From an uncultured Pelagibacteraceae bacterium (GTDB lineage Bacteria > Pseudomonadota > Alphaproteobacteria > Pelagibacterales > Pelagibacteraceae), in the NCBI GenBank assembly GCA_902597895.1, contig CACJZM010000005.1, forward strand, positions 1 through 48,191: a DNA stretch of 48,191 nucleotides. Direction: 5' to 3'. Below, in pieces: positions 6,635 to 19,614 of this stretch. The position numbers and the translations under genes were made by a program. Every line of letters starts with the position of its first letter. Positions within the stretch are counted from its first letter, which is position 1. Below the pieces are notes generated by a model. It was not told the DNA's origin. It ran no database searches and saw nothing but the letters and a program-made list of their open reading frames with translations.

Positions 6635-7405
6635 ATGAAAAAACTTAAATTGTTTGCTCTTGCATCTTTAGCTCTATTGGGCTTTTCAGGTGCGGCAAAT
6701 GCGGAAACTGTCCTTCTGGCTTCAGATGATTTCGTTGGGATATCTTTTTGGGTAATCGCAATGGGAATGGCAGCAGCAACTGTATTCTTCTTTATGGAAA
6801 GAGGATCAGTAGCAGCGGGCTGGAAAACATCTGTAACAGTAGCAGGACTAGTAACTGGTGTAGCATTCGTACATTACATGTACATGAGAGATGTATGGGT
6901 AATGACTGGAGACTCGCCAACAGTATACAGATATATTGACTGGTTAATTACTGTTCCATTACAGATGGTAGAATTCTATTTAATTCTAGCAGCTGTAGGT
7001 AAAGCAAATTCTGGAATGTTCTGGAGATTGTTAATTGGATCATTAGTAATGTTAATCGGTGGATACTTAGGAGAAGCAGGTTACATCAATGCTATGCTTG
7101 GATTTATAGTAGGTATGGCTGGATGGATCTACATCTTATATGAAGTATTCTCAGGTGAAGCAGGTAAAGCTGCTGCTAAAAGTGGTAACAAGGCTCTTGT
7201 GACTGCATTTAGTGCAATGAGAATGATTGTAACAGTAGGTTGGGCAATTTACCCATTAGGTTATGTATTTGGTTACCTAACAGGTGGTGTAGATGCTAAT
7301 TCACTAAACGTGATTTACAACTTAGCAGACTTTATTAACAAGATCGCTTTTGGTCTTGTAATTTGGGCTGCAGCTGTTTCATCTGTTTCTAGAGCTAAAA
7401 GATAA
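6635..7405 (+). CDS. Proteorhodopsin, blue-tuned, light-driven proton pump
   Basis: A 256-residue retinal protein of the inner membrane with a cleavable-looking signal peptide (ending near AANA, residue 23) and seven helices. Key residues can be numbered by comparison with known proteorhodopsin: proton acceptor Asp102 in RYIDW (Asp97), donor Glu113 in VEFYLIL (Glu108), His80 (His75), and retinal Schiff-base Lys236 in INKIAFG (Lys231). The tuning position (Leu/Gln105) is Gln110, which predicts blue absorption as in open-ocean types. The D/E pair predicts an outward proton pump. It has a good ribosome site and its own terminator, so it is probably a strongly expressed single transcript. Confidence 0.97.
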   Translation: MKKLKLFALASLALLGFSGAANAETVLLASDDFVGISFWVIAMGMAAATVFFFMERGSVAAGWKTSVTVAGLVTGVAFVHYMYMRDVWVMTGDSPTVYRYIDWLITVPLQMVEFYLILAAVGKANSGMFWRLLIGSLVMLIGGYLGEAGYINAMLGFIVGMAGWIYILYEVFSGEAGKAAAKSGNKALVTAFSAMRMIVTVGWAIYPLGYVFGYLTGGVDANSLNVIYNLADFINKIAFGLVIWAAAVSSVSRAKR

Positions 7406-12224: not shown

Positions 12225-13408
12225 AAAAAATTTTTTTATTAATTTTATTAAATTTTTTATTATTTGAAATCTCAAATGCAGATTTTAAAAAAATAAAAAA
12301 AAAGGCAGTCGTTAACAATCCTGAGATAATTTTTCCTTTGCCTAAAGATTTAAAAGGTTGTCGGACTGAAATGAGGATAAATCCTAAATACAATAAGGTT
12401 ACACCAATAATTGAACTGGATGCTCCTGAGGGGTATGGTCTTGATGATAGATTTAGTGAGGCAGGCGGTAAGTTTGGTGAATTTAGTATACCATGTTCAA
12501 CTGGGAATAAGGAAGCGTGCACATATGCTGTAAAAGTAATATTGGATTGGGCAAAAGCAGGAGCAGCAAAAAGAATTGGTCCTAATGACGATGAGGGAAA
12601 ATATTGGAATGATACATTAACTGTAAATTTGTTTATAGCATCACCCATGATGGCAGCATATTCTTTTGCAAAACAGGTAATCAATGTACCTGATGAAGAT
12701 GACAAAATAATAAAAGATTGGTTTAAAAAAATTGTAAAAAAAAATCAACATTTGATGTACGGCAAAACCTATGATTATGGAGGCGCAAGCGGTACTCCAA
12801 AACGAGCGCATAATCATGCATTGTCGTCAGCGGATGCACACATGATGCTTGGTATTCTTACAGGAAACGATAAGACTTTTAGAAAAGCTTTTAAGAATTA
12901 TGAAGCGGCAATAAAATATTCTAGAAAAGATGGAAGCTTACCTATTGAGACTAGAAGAGGCGGAAGAGCAATGTTTTATGAGGGAAGAGCAATAAATAAA
13001 TTAACAGTTATTGGAATTATTGCTGAGAACCAAGGTTATGATATTTGGAACTACAGCTACAAAGGTAAAGATTTTCATAATGTAATTAAATTCTTTATAG
13101 ATTTTACTGAAAATAATGAAATTGTTTTTCCTTATGCTAAAGAAATGAGACATCCAGGTCCCGCAAAAAATTATAAAAAACAAGACTTAAAATGGAATAA
13201 TAGCAGTAATTGGGGATGGTTATATTCTTATGTTTCAAGATTTCCAGACCATGAAAATGTTCAAAGACTGAAAAAATGGTCTCAAAATAAAAGTGAACTT
13301 AACCCCACTCAATGGGATATAGTTCGTCATTATGAAAATGTAGGAAAACAACCTTTTAGTTGGGCTTCTTGGACTGTAGTAGAGCCCAATTGTCATTTTA
13401 CTAAGTAG
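12221..13408 (+). CDS. Exported alginate-lyase-like protein
   Basis: A 395-residue protein with a signal peptide (about 1-20, ending SNA) and an alpha/alpha-barrel-type lyase domain. AHNHALSSADAHMML at about 196-210 and DGSLPIETRRGGRAMFYEGRA at about 237-256 match conserved parts of the alginate lyase family (PL5-like), which cleaves uronic-acid glycans in the periplasm by beta-elimination. Substrate cannot be told; it may trim a cell-surface glycan made by the two upstream transferases rather than degrade food. It starts at GTG in a GTGA overlap with the GT2 gene and converges on umuC with an 8-bp overlap. Confidence 0.78.
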   Translation: MKKIFLLILLNFLLFEISNADFKKIKKKAVVNNPEIIFPLPKDLKGCRTEMRINPKYNKVTPIIELDAPEGYGLDDRFSEAGGKFGEFSIPCSTGNKEACTYAVKVILDWAKAGAAKRIGPNDDEGKYWNDTLTVNLFIASPMMAAYSFAKQVINVPDEDDKIIKDWFKKIVKKNQHLMYGKTYDYGGASGTPKRAHNHALSSADAHMMLGILTGNDKTFRKAFKNYEAAIKYSRKDGSLPIETRRGGRAMFYEGRAINKLTVIGIIAENQGYDIWNYSYKGKDFHNVIKFFIDFTENNEIVFPYAKEMRHPGPAKNYKKQDLKWNNSSNWGWLYSYVSRFPDHENVQRLKKWSQNKSELNPTQWDIVRHYENVGKQPFSWASWTVVEPNCHFTK

Positions 13409-14681
13409 CTCTTATTGTTGGTACACAATAAAAATCAGCTGTATCTATTTTAGAAGAATGTTCTCTTCTCATATTCCATTTTTTATGAACCCCAGCACTT
13501 GCAAGGCTCAAAGTAGATCTTCCATATCTATAATTAGTATTGTCAATTGATTTCATCAAATTTTTTATCTTTTCATCTTTTTCAGATGAAAACAAATTTT
13601 TTTTACCATCTGAGTTTGATAGTCCAGTGAGCATAACACCTGCTTTTTGATATCTATAGCCATTTTTAAAAATACTTTCTAGAATAGTAATTGCAGCTTT
13701 TACAGTTTCAATACTATTATTTGTTGCAATAGGAAAGTCTATTGTTTTTGAATTTGAGTAGTATCCAAAATTTCTTTGAAAGGGACTAGTTCTAACGAAA
13801 ACTGTTATTGCTTTTGCAACCAAAGACTCAGATCTAATTTTTTCTGATGCATTTAAACAATAATTAGCTACTGCTTCTTTTAATTCTTGAAATCTTTCAA
13901 CTCTTTTTCCAAAAGAACGCGATACAACACAACTTTTTCTTTTTGACGATGTTGTCTCTAGATTAATACAAGGGATACCACGCAATTCCATTGCTGTTCT
14001 TGAACTTAAAACATTTGAGCATTTTTTAATCCATGTATTAGATTTGTTTTTAAGTTGTTTTGCATTATAAATTCCATTTTGTTGGTAAAATTTAGTAAGC
14101 TGCTTTCCAACACCCCAAATATCATTTATCTCTACCTTTTCTAATATTGGATCGATATTTTCTATTCCAATTAAACTTGCAACACCTGATTGTTTTTTCT
14201 TTGCAATGTGATTTGCAACTTTACTTAAAGTTTTTGTTTTTGCTATTCCAATACTAGTAGGAATACCTGTCCATTTTAAAACAGTTGATCTAATTTCTTT
14301 TCCCACTTTTTCTACTTCATCATCAGAAAAATTAGACAAATCTAAAAAAGCTTCATCAATAGAATAAACTTCTATATCAGAATTAAATCTTTTTAGTGTT
14401 CTCATAACTCTTCTAGACAAATCCCCATACAATGAATAATTAGAAGAAAATACATTCACATCATTTTTTATGATTATATCTTTTGCTTTAAAATATGGTT
14501 CCCCCATTTTAATTCCTAAAGCTTTTGCCTCATTAGATCTTGAGATAATACAGCCATCATTATTTGACAACACAACAACTGGTTTTTTTCTTATCTTTGG
14601 ATTAAATAATCTTTCACAAGAAACATAGAAAGAGTTACAATCTACTAATGCTATTTTTTTAGTACACTGAGTGGATGACAT
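13401..14681 (-). CDS. umuC: DNA polymerase V catalytic subunit (Y-family)
   Basis: A 426-residue Y-family translesion polymerase that, with processed UmuD, copies damaged DNA. The start KIALVDCNSFYVSCERLF and the catalytic VYSIDEAFLDLS around residue 103-115 carry the metal-binding acids. IGIAKTKTLSKVANHIAKK is the usual finger region, followed by a helix-hairpin-helix (IWGVGKQL) and the UmuC C-terminal domain. Length matches E. coli UmuC (422). Its ATG lies 23 bp inside umuD, so it is co-transcribed from the SOS promoter upstream of umuD. Confidence 0.94.
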   Translation of the reverse strand: MSSTQCTKKIALVDCNSFYVSCERLFNPKIRKKPVVVLSNNDGCIISRSNEAKALGIKMGEPYFKAKDIIIKNDVNVFSSNYSLYGDLSRRVMRTLKRFNSDIEVYSIDEAFLDLSNFSDDEVEKVGKEIRSTVLKWTGIPTSIGIAKTKTLSKVANHIAKKKQSGVASLIGIENIDPILEKVEINDIWGVGKQLTKFYQQNGIYNAKQLKNKSNTWIKKCSNVLSSRTAMELRGIPCINLETTSSKRKSCVVSRSFGKRVERFQELKEAVANYCLNASEKIRSESLVAKAITVFVRTSPFQRNFGYYSNSKTIDFPIATNNSIETVKAAITILESIFKNGYRYQKAGVMLTGLSNSDGKKNLFSSEKDEKIKNLMKSIDNTNYRYGRSTLSLASAGVHKKWNMRREHSSKIDTADFYCVPTIRAT

Positions 14682-15054
14682 AAGTTACAACTCCCCATAT
14701 AAAAACATCTTCTTCTTCATTGATTAAAATTCGATCTTCAAAATTTTTAGAACCAGAGGTTAAAAACTTTTTATCTCTTTCTTGAACAAAACTTTTCACA
14801 ACTAATTCATCATGAACGTTCGCAATAACTGTAGAAAAATTTCTTGGCGTTAAACTTTTGTCAACAACCAACAAGTCTCCATCATTGATTCCCACGTTTA
14901 CCATTGATTTACCTTGAACTCTTATTATGAAGGTAGCTGGGACATTTTTTATTAGATGAACGTTTAGATCGATATCTTCTTCTATGTAATCTGTAGCTGG
15001 AGATGGAAAACCTGCTCCAGCTTTGTGCAAATAGTAAGGTATTGTTAGCTTCAT
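14659..15054 (-). CDS. umuD: UmuD, self-cleaving S24 peptidase
   Basis: About 131 residues. UmuD is cleaved with RecA filament help to UmuD', the partner of UmuC. The cleavage site is Ala14-Gly15 in AGAGFPSPA, and the catalytic dyad is Ser50 (QGKSM) and Lys87 (VVKSF). The 35-residue distance from site to serine and the 37 from serine to lysine equal those of E. coli UmuD. I chose ATG at 15054; the longer frame from TTG at 15105 would run through the promoter and LexA box, and that TTG is itself part of the -35 element. Confidence 0.92.
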   Translation of the reverse strand: MKLTIPYYLHKAGAGFPSPATDYIEEDIDLNVHLIKNVPATFIIRVQGKSMVNVGINDGDLLVVDKSLTPRNFSTVIANVHDELVVKSFVQERDKKFLTSGSKNFEDRILINEEEDVFIWGVVTYVIHSVY

Positions 15055-15058
15055 AAAT

Positions 15059-15073
15059 GTTCTTATTTTGTTC
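15059..15073 (-). promoter_or_regulatory. LexA (SOS) box of umuDC
   Basis: The plus strand reads GTTC-N7-GTTC exactly, the consensus alphaproteobacterial LexA operator (GAAC-N7-GAAC on the gene strand). It lies directly downstream of the -10 element and ends 5 bp before the umuD ATG, so LexA bound here would block transcription start. Confidence 0.88.
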
Positions 15074-15078
15074 TTATT

Positions 15079-15105
15079 AGTATACAAGTTATTCAATAGT
15101 GTCAA
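15079..15105 (-). promoter_or_regulatory. Near-consensus sigma-70 promoter of umuDC
   Basis: Read on the minus strand, a perfect TTGACA (15105-15100) and TATACT (15084-15079, five of six) are separated by 15 bp. Transcription would start around 15072, inside the LexA box, giving a leader of under 20 nt. Confidence 0.78.
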
Positions 15106-15127
15106 TCAGGTTGTATTTTGAGTCTGG

Positions 15128-15151
15128 AAGTGAATCAAAAGTGAATCAAAA
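15128..15151. repeat. Tandem 11-bp direct repeat in umuD/SOUL spacer
   Basis: The unit GTGAATCAAAA occurs twice in tandem (15130-15140 and 15141-15151), and two bases of a third copy precede it. It lies between the divergent umuD and SOUL genes. Tandem sites one helical turn apart can bind a regulator, but no function is known to me. Confidence 0.4.
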
Positions 15152-15223
15152 CAAGAACATCTAATCCATATTTTGTAGTCTTGTGGATAACTTTAACCAT
15201 GTATAGTTTAATTTTATATTAAA

Positions 15224-18387: not shown

Positions 18388-18430
18388 TTCAAGGCTTTTT
18401 GGAACAGATTAATATTTTTATTGCCAATGA

Positions 18431-18445
18431 GAACAAAATGTGTAC
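18431..18445 (+). promoter_or_regulatory. Degenerate LexA box upstream of recA
   Basis: GAAC-N7-GTAC, one mismatch from the alphaproteobacterial consensus and matching the umuDC box at 12 of 15 positions. It lies 50 bp before the recA ATG and just before a TATAAG (18449-18454) that could be the -10. RecA has a ribosome site GAGG at 18486-18489. Confidence 0.6.
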
Positions 18446-18495
18446 ATTTATAAGCATGATTCGAGTGTTAAAAAATGTAAAAAAAGAGGCAAAAA

Positions 18496-19614
18496 ATGAC
18501 TAAAAATAACTTAAAAGTGGTTAAACCCACTAAAGATAAAGAATTGGAAAATAAAGAAAAGAATAAAGCATTAGACGCAGCAATAAGCCAAATCACAGAT
18601 AACTTTGGAAAAGGTTCTGTAATGAAGCTAGGTGAACAAAAAGCTATGGATGTTGAATCTGTTTCAACAGGTTCTTTAAGTTTAGACTTAGCGCTTGGAA
18701 TTGGTGGATTGCCAAAAGGAAGAATTGTTGAAATTTATGGACCAGAGTCTTCTGGAAAAACAACTTTAGCATTACATGTAATTGCTGAAGCACAAAAAGC
18801 TGGTGGAATTTGTGGATTTGTGGATGCTGAACATGCTTTAGACCCAATTTATGCAAAAAAATTAGGAGTAAATACTGAAGAACTTTTAATTTCACAACCA
18901 GATACTGGAGAGCAAGCTTTAGAAATTACAGATACGTTAATAAAATCAGGCTCTATGTCAGTACTAGTAATTGACTCTGTAGCAGCGTTAACGCCAAGAG
19001 CAGAAATTGAAGGGGATATGGGAGACCATCACGTTGGTTTACAGGCTAGACTGATGTCTCAAGCTTTAAGAAAATTAACTGGTTCAGTTTCAAGAACTAA
19101 TACAATGGTTATTTTCATTAACCAAATTAGAATGAAAATTGGTGTAATGTTTGGTAGTCCTGAAACTACATCAGGTGGAAATTCGCTTAAATTTTATTCA
19201 TCAGTAAGAATGGATATTAGAAGAATAGGTGCAATAAAAGATAAAGAGCAAATAATTGGTAATACAACAAGAGTTAAAGTGGTTAAAAATAAAGTTGCAC
19301 CACCATTTAAGGTCGTTGAATTTGATTTGATGTATGGAAAAGGAATTAGTAAAACAGGAGAATTAATTGATCTAGGCGCTAAAGCAGAAATAGTTGAAAA
19401 ATCAGGCGCTTGGTACGCTTATAAGGGTGAAAAAATAGGTCAAGGTAAAGAAAATGCTAAACTTTTCTTAGAACAAAATCCAAAAGCTGCTGCTGAAATT
19501 GAAATGGCGATTAGGGAAAAAGCTGGATTAATTTCAAAAAAAATTGAGGGAAATCCTTTAGATAAGGAAAAAGCAGAGGCAGTTACAGAAGAAACACCTT
19601 CAAAAAAGAATTAG
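18496..19614 (+). CDS. recA: Recombinase RecA
   Basis: A 372-residue RecA, the strand-exchange ATPase of homologous recombination and co-protease for LexA and UmuD. Walker [10 protein letters not shown] is at about 82-90, Walker [11 protein letters not shown] near 155, and the L1/L2 DNA-binding loops include [18 protein letters not shown] and [15 protein letters not shown] lysine-rich 20-residue N-terminal extension precedes the core. It has its own terminator, and so is probably a separate transcript. The umuDC operon a few kilobases to the left needs it for activation. Confidence 0.98.

Follow-up and report, generated by a model that had tools for sequence, protein, structure and literature searches.

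In Alphaproteobacteria, the LexA motif is reported, in the excerpts cited herein, to be the direct repeat GTTC-N7-GTTC (PMC8565304, PMC9578287). The SOS box of Caulobacter crescentus has this repeat and spacing, and a LexA box lies on its mutagenic polymerase operon (PMC8565304, PMC9578287); according to an excerpt of PMC1839093, that species lacks umuDC and has an imuAB-dnaE2 operon. Escherichia coli, by contrast, has a LexA-controlled umuD-umuC pair, and its LexA box is the palindrome TACTG(TA)5CAGTA (excerpt of PMC9578287). For SAR11, published excerpts describe recA, lexA, umuD, and umuC rising together in cells infected with HTVC027P, an infection that also induces nrdAB (PMC12753301), and lexA, recA, and mucA grouping together as markers of late iron stress (PMC2864753). 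This expression agrees with SOS control in SAR11, the inducers being other than UV, although the passages in question give no operator sequence. Further, among the papers listed by our searches of an open-licence library, no title or abstract start defined a SAR11 LexA operator or named nrdA as a target.

The window considered herein, a stretch of 48,191 nucleotides from an uncultured member of the Pelagibacteraceae, contains umuD and umuC as well as recA (Table 1). Elsewhere in it, as read by eye from translations, a gene for a proteorhodopsin-like membrane protein (6635-7405, plus strand) is followed by ferredoxin- and reductase-like genes. Judging from the sequence, we put at roughly 93% the probability that the repeat in front of umuD is a LexA operator of the kind already known from Alphaproteobacteria, controlling umuDC as an SOS gene. 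This reading draws on features that were observed directly, namely, the box, the genes with their expected catalytic residues, conservation among relatives, and specificity across the genome. Relative to Caulobacter, the repeat and spacing are the same, but the SAR11 target is umuDC and the core of the box is fixed as AGAACAAAAYAAGAACA. Relative to E. coli, the box is a direct repeat instead of a palindrome, and the self-cleaving UmuD aligns over its length, with an arm about ten residues shorter in the alignment.

Table 1. Positions and supporting evidence for features at the umuDC and recA loci of the window.
Feature	Position	Strand	Evidence
umuC, 426 aa, Y-family DNA polymerase V subunit	13401..14681	-	Pfam IMS, IMS_C, DUF4113
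umuD, 131 aa; cleavage A14-G15, S50, K87	14659..15054	-	NCBIfam PRK10276, 139.5 bits (cut-off 110); PDB UmuD 8gmt/1umu
Putative LexA operator of umuDC, GAAC-N7-GAAC in gene orientation	15059..15073	-	exact match; kept in 50/50 umuD promoters
Likely -10 of umuDC, TACTAA, 17-bp spacer	15077..15082	-	TATWAA column consensus, 45 distinct umuD promoters
-35 element of umuDC, TTGACA	15100..15105	-	sequence; TTG conserved ~32 bp before box
Rfam RF01827 "SAR11_0636 sRNA", divergent neighbour, separate from the LexA operator	15109..15198	+	Rfam, 99.3 bits (gathering 67)
Variant LexA box of recA, AGAACAAAATGTGTAC (AGAAC-AAAATGT-GTAC)	18430..18445	+	genome scan; AGAAC-N7-GTAC kept in 51/51
recA	18496..19614	+	NCBIfam recA equivalog, 559 bits

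The GTTC-N7-GTTC that a first-pass annotation had placed before umuD is an exact match, reading GTTCTTATTTTGTTC on the plus strand and GAACAAAATAAGAAC in gene orientation, and forms part of an extended box, AGAACAAAATAAGAACA (15058-15074). Four nucleotides separate the operator from the umuD ATG (15054-15052, minus strand). The same annotation had paired TTGACA with TATACT (15084-15079) across a 15-bp spacer; both hexamers and the spacing are there, but the choice of TATACT as the -10 element was probably wrong. Specifically, counted from the box on which the umuD promoters were aligned, TTGA lies around -32 and TATWAA spans -9 to -4, leaving a 17-bp spacer, and these TATWAA columns, the most conserved -10 columns and only 3 bp from the box, read TACTAA here. 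Hence, the -10 as first given is probably two bases off, and the overlapping TACTAA is the likelier element. A consensus scan of the minus strand of this region yielded no promoter with 16-18 spacing; by consensus, then, this is a weak promoter, and its start, which we infer, should fall inside the box under either -10. The leader would then be about 15-18 nt long, with no obvious ribosome-binding site.

The position of the box is retained among relatives. We examined 50 regions upstream of umuD from 12 genera, consisting of the 30 best matches, all from the same genus, and 20 picked for genus spread; the umuD, lexA, recA, and nrdA sets are thus non-random, each beginning with its 30 best matches. 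GAAC-N7-GAAC was found in 50/50 promoters, with the extended box AGAACAAAAYAAGAACA in the same place across the 12 genera. Among the 45 distinct sequences, both half-sites are invariant and the core nearly so, while the flanks diverge. The box is separated from the -10 columns by 3 bp and from the next ATG by no more than 9 nt (4 nt in 24 promoters, 0 in 17, 3 in 7, and 7 and 9 in one each), which would place it over the core promoter. Because these distances vary by non-multiples of three, a TTG-started upstream extension of umuD is not coding, in line with the start at 15054 proposed earlier. Five further umuD-adjacent regions had the exact box in four cases and, in G047, a box with one mismatch.

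The proteins encoded by the two genes are those expected of a mutagenic polymerase. umuC overlaps umuD by 23 nt, and both score as polymerase V subunits. UmuD has an S24 domain with the Ser/Lys dyad and the cleavage site and is without a DNA-binding domain, while UmuC is a Y-family polymerase with the UmuC-type C-terminus (DUF4113), for which the best NCBIfam model is, by far, UmuC (408.8 bits, just under the cut-off of 431).

A LexA that could act on this site is encoded in the rest of the genome, where the first-pass annotation had suggested looking for it. The window's own assembly (G000) gave one match to the LexA DNA-binding domain, on contig C14 (PF01726, 52.7 bits; cut-off 23.7), in a protein that scores as the LexA equivalog (TIGR00498, 168.3 bits; cut-off 110.95) and combines an N-terminal DNA-binding domain with an S24 self-cleaving domain (A111-G112, S146, K184). 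Its promoter carries the same box as umuD, plus a variant box. lexA was matched in 164/197 genomes of the family and in 74 of the 77 good ones, leaving three good relatives with no match. Autoregulation is suggested by 51 regions upstream of lexA (the 30 best matches, 20 chosen for genus spread, and that of G000), all of which have an umuD-type box 37-39 bp before the ATG, the one in G099 having been read after its start was corrected. In most of the 51, a second site, GTAC-N7-GTTC, abuts the start.

By analogy with known LexA biology, from which we infer LexA binding, cleavage, repression, and the exact transcription start, the following mechanism can be proposed. LexA would bind the direct repeat GAAC-N7-GAAC, which starts about 3 bp downstream of the umuDC -10, would span the expected transcription start, and ends just short of the umuD start codon; with that transcription start covered, bound LexA would block initiation. 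Upon DNA damage, RecA filaments would trigger the self-cleavage of LexA at A111-G112 (S146, K184), thereby derepressing umuDC, and UmuD would cleave itself at A14-G15 and join UmuC to make up the mutagenic polymerase. This LexA would also be expected to control lexA, through two boxes, recA, through a variant box, and, in relatives, nrdA. A single LexA would, therefore, presumably read both the direct GAAC repeat of umuD and the GAAC-N7-GTAC of recA.

For recA, AGAAC-N7-GTAC was present in 51/51 upstream regions (the 30 best matches, 20 chosen for genus spread, and that of G026). The pattern used to find the recA start missed 13 of the 30 loci, 12 of which were then seen to have the box on re-reading; in G166, the box is present, but the chosen start lies upstream of it, with residues NENKMCTF spanning the box. 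In G164 (L207), the box has a different centre (AGAACAAAAGTAGTAC), with both half-sites retained. As a separate observation on the recA leader (18446-18495 in the window), GATTCG or GAGTCG, a GANTC site, follows shortly after the box in nearly all relatives read.

Whether such a short repeat could arise by chance in an AT-rich genome deserves consideration, given that the bare motif carries little weight. Within the window, shuffling gave it no significance (0.59 GTTC-N7-GTTC expected, with 43/100 shuffles holding at least one), and in G000 (1.01 Mb, 83% complete) it was not enriched, with 13 exact matches versus 20 for the reversed control. Only two of those 13, at umuD and lexA, were in promoter positions when open reading frames were read by eye, one match near rpsO being counted as coding. 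The significance of the umuD box thus comes from its position and conservation and not from the motif alone. The variant box suggested a further pattern, AGAAC-N7-GWAC, which has seven matches in G000: two at lexA, one each at umuD and recA, and three within genes. The stricter AGAACWWWWNNNGWACA has just four exact matches there, two at lexA and one each at umuD and recA, so that the genome-wide scan proposed at the outset leaves the box at SOS promoters. In six same-genus genomes, exact AGAACWWWWNNNGWACA gave 29 matches. By coordinates, 26 of them lie at lexA, recA, umuD, or nrdA; two more are within genes, and the remaining one is G017:344070. A one-mismatch scan of the six genomes was no richer than its control, and no new target was called from it. 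Against half-sites that are invariant in 50/50 umuD promoters from 12 genera, and a stricter pattern restricted to SOS promoters in G000, a chance origin is refuted by conservation and hardly credible.

The boxes might instead be read by another repressor, such as UmuD itself or another S24-family protein, for which there is a precedent in the suggestion, in an excerpt of PMC3978071, that a UmuD-like protein acts as an analogue of LexA in Acinetobacter, where LexA itself is missing. Here, however, a full-length LexA with its N-terminal DNA-binding domain is present and has the box in its own promoter, and only 14 residues precede the cleavage site of UmuD, not enough to make up a DNA-binding domain; we regard this alternative as extremely improbable. 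Slightly less remote, though still very unlikely, is that the box serves a divergent transcript, either the SAR11_0636 sRNA element (RF01827) or the SOUL-domain gene, and not umuD. With the element starting 4 bp upstream of the umuD -35, a common operator for the two is conceivable. Yet no box was found near any of 15 element copies located away from umuD (0/15, -300 to +400), by which shared LexA control of the element was rejected, and umuD retains the box where the gene has moved or its promoter does not adjoin the element (G018, G163, G098, G005, and G015). The SOS control of umuDC by LexA that the first-pass annotation had predicted is, at the level of sequence, well supported by the presence of lexA, the conserved box, and its specificity for SOS promoters.

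The neighbouring element merits a description of its own. RF01827 has matches in 154/197 genomes of the family (E of 0.001 or better). Earlier work put it forward as a structured RNA lying between SAR11_0635, which corresponds to umuD here, and the SOUL gene, with a conserved stem, P2, lacking covariation (excerpt of PMC2704228). Our check of the fold, limited to ungapped 90-nt copies (26 distinct sequences), gave it no covariation support: clear compensatory changes were absent, and the sequences from other genera have several broken pairs. All 26 have exactly three GANTC sites, and the invariant core reads GTTGTA..TGAGTC..GAATCAAA..TGAATCAAAA..GAACAT..TGTGGATA. Judged by its sequence, RF01827 may resemble a DNA element no less than it does an RNA. 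Many genomes of genus g4 have two copies; four g4 copies (L172, L173, L176, and L189) precede a different gene (reading MFSKELGDKLDRYHLLKHPFYQ...), and three of these begin directly after the stop codon of the upstream gene. The conserved block upstream of umuD contains a DnaA-box-like TGTGGATAA together with three GANTC sites. A replication origin at this locus was considered and rejected, as GC skew does not change sign there (G026, 20 stretches of 20 kb); the 9-mer occurs four times in 400 kb sampled from both strands of G026, about the base-composition expectation.

Beyond lexA, recA, and umuDC, the box is found at nrdA. In 30/30 upstream regions read, it sits immediately ahead of a TTGA-like -35. 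A search of 60 genomes gave nrdA matches in 53, and the regions read are those of the 30 best match places; four were re-read after their start could not be placed. An intergenic box between nrdA and a phosphomannomutase/phosphoglucomutase-like gene is present in 6/6 complete genomes. Because nrdA gave no match in the G000 assembly, its box could not be checked in the window's own genome. The nrdA promoters that were printed in full (L292-L321) also carry ACACAACATNTAGTTGTT, which resembles an NrdR box. Published SAR11 work, in the excerpt available, explains nrdAB induction by phage need (PMC12753301), whereas our results show a conserved LexA box at nrdA. Three complete genomes from other genera (G005, G009, and G040; g5, g9, and g12) have a further box before mraZ, where the division cluster starts; the three complete genomes of the same genus that were scanned have none there. 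This box (L243, L244, and L275) follows what looks like the 3' end of an RNase P RNA, and through it the SOS response might act on the division cluster.

SAR11 bacteria are among the most abundant bacterial groups and have few regulators. On balance, we favour a miniature SOS regulon in SAR11, with about four units (lexA, recA, umuDC, and nrdA), one LexA, and a near-invariant box, in which nrdA would be directly LexA-controlled. If so, LexA control of ribonucleotide reductase would couple the supply of dNTPs to mutagenic repair in a single step, and the nrdAB rise in phage-infected SAR11 would be, at least partly, an SOS effect. With an operator defined, the whole damage response of SAR11 becomes listable from sequence and testable with a handful of promoters. 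The short list of targets adds nrdA, which would link nucleotide supply to mutagenic repair in cells under sunlight or phage attack.
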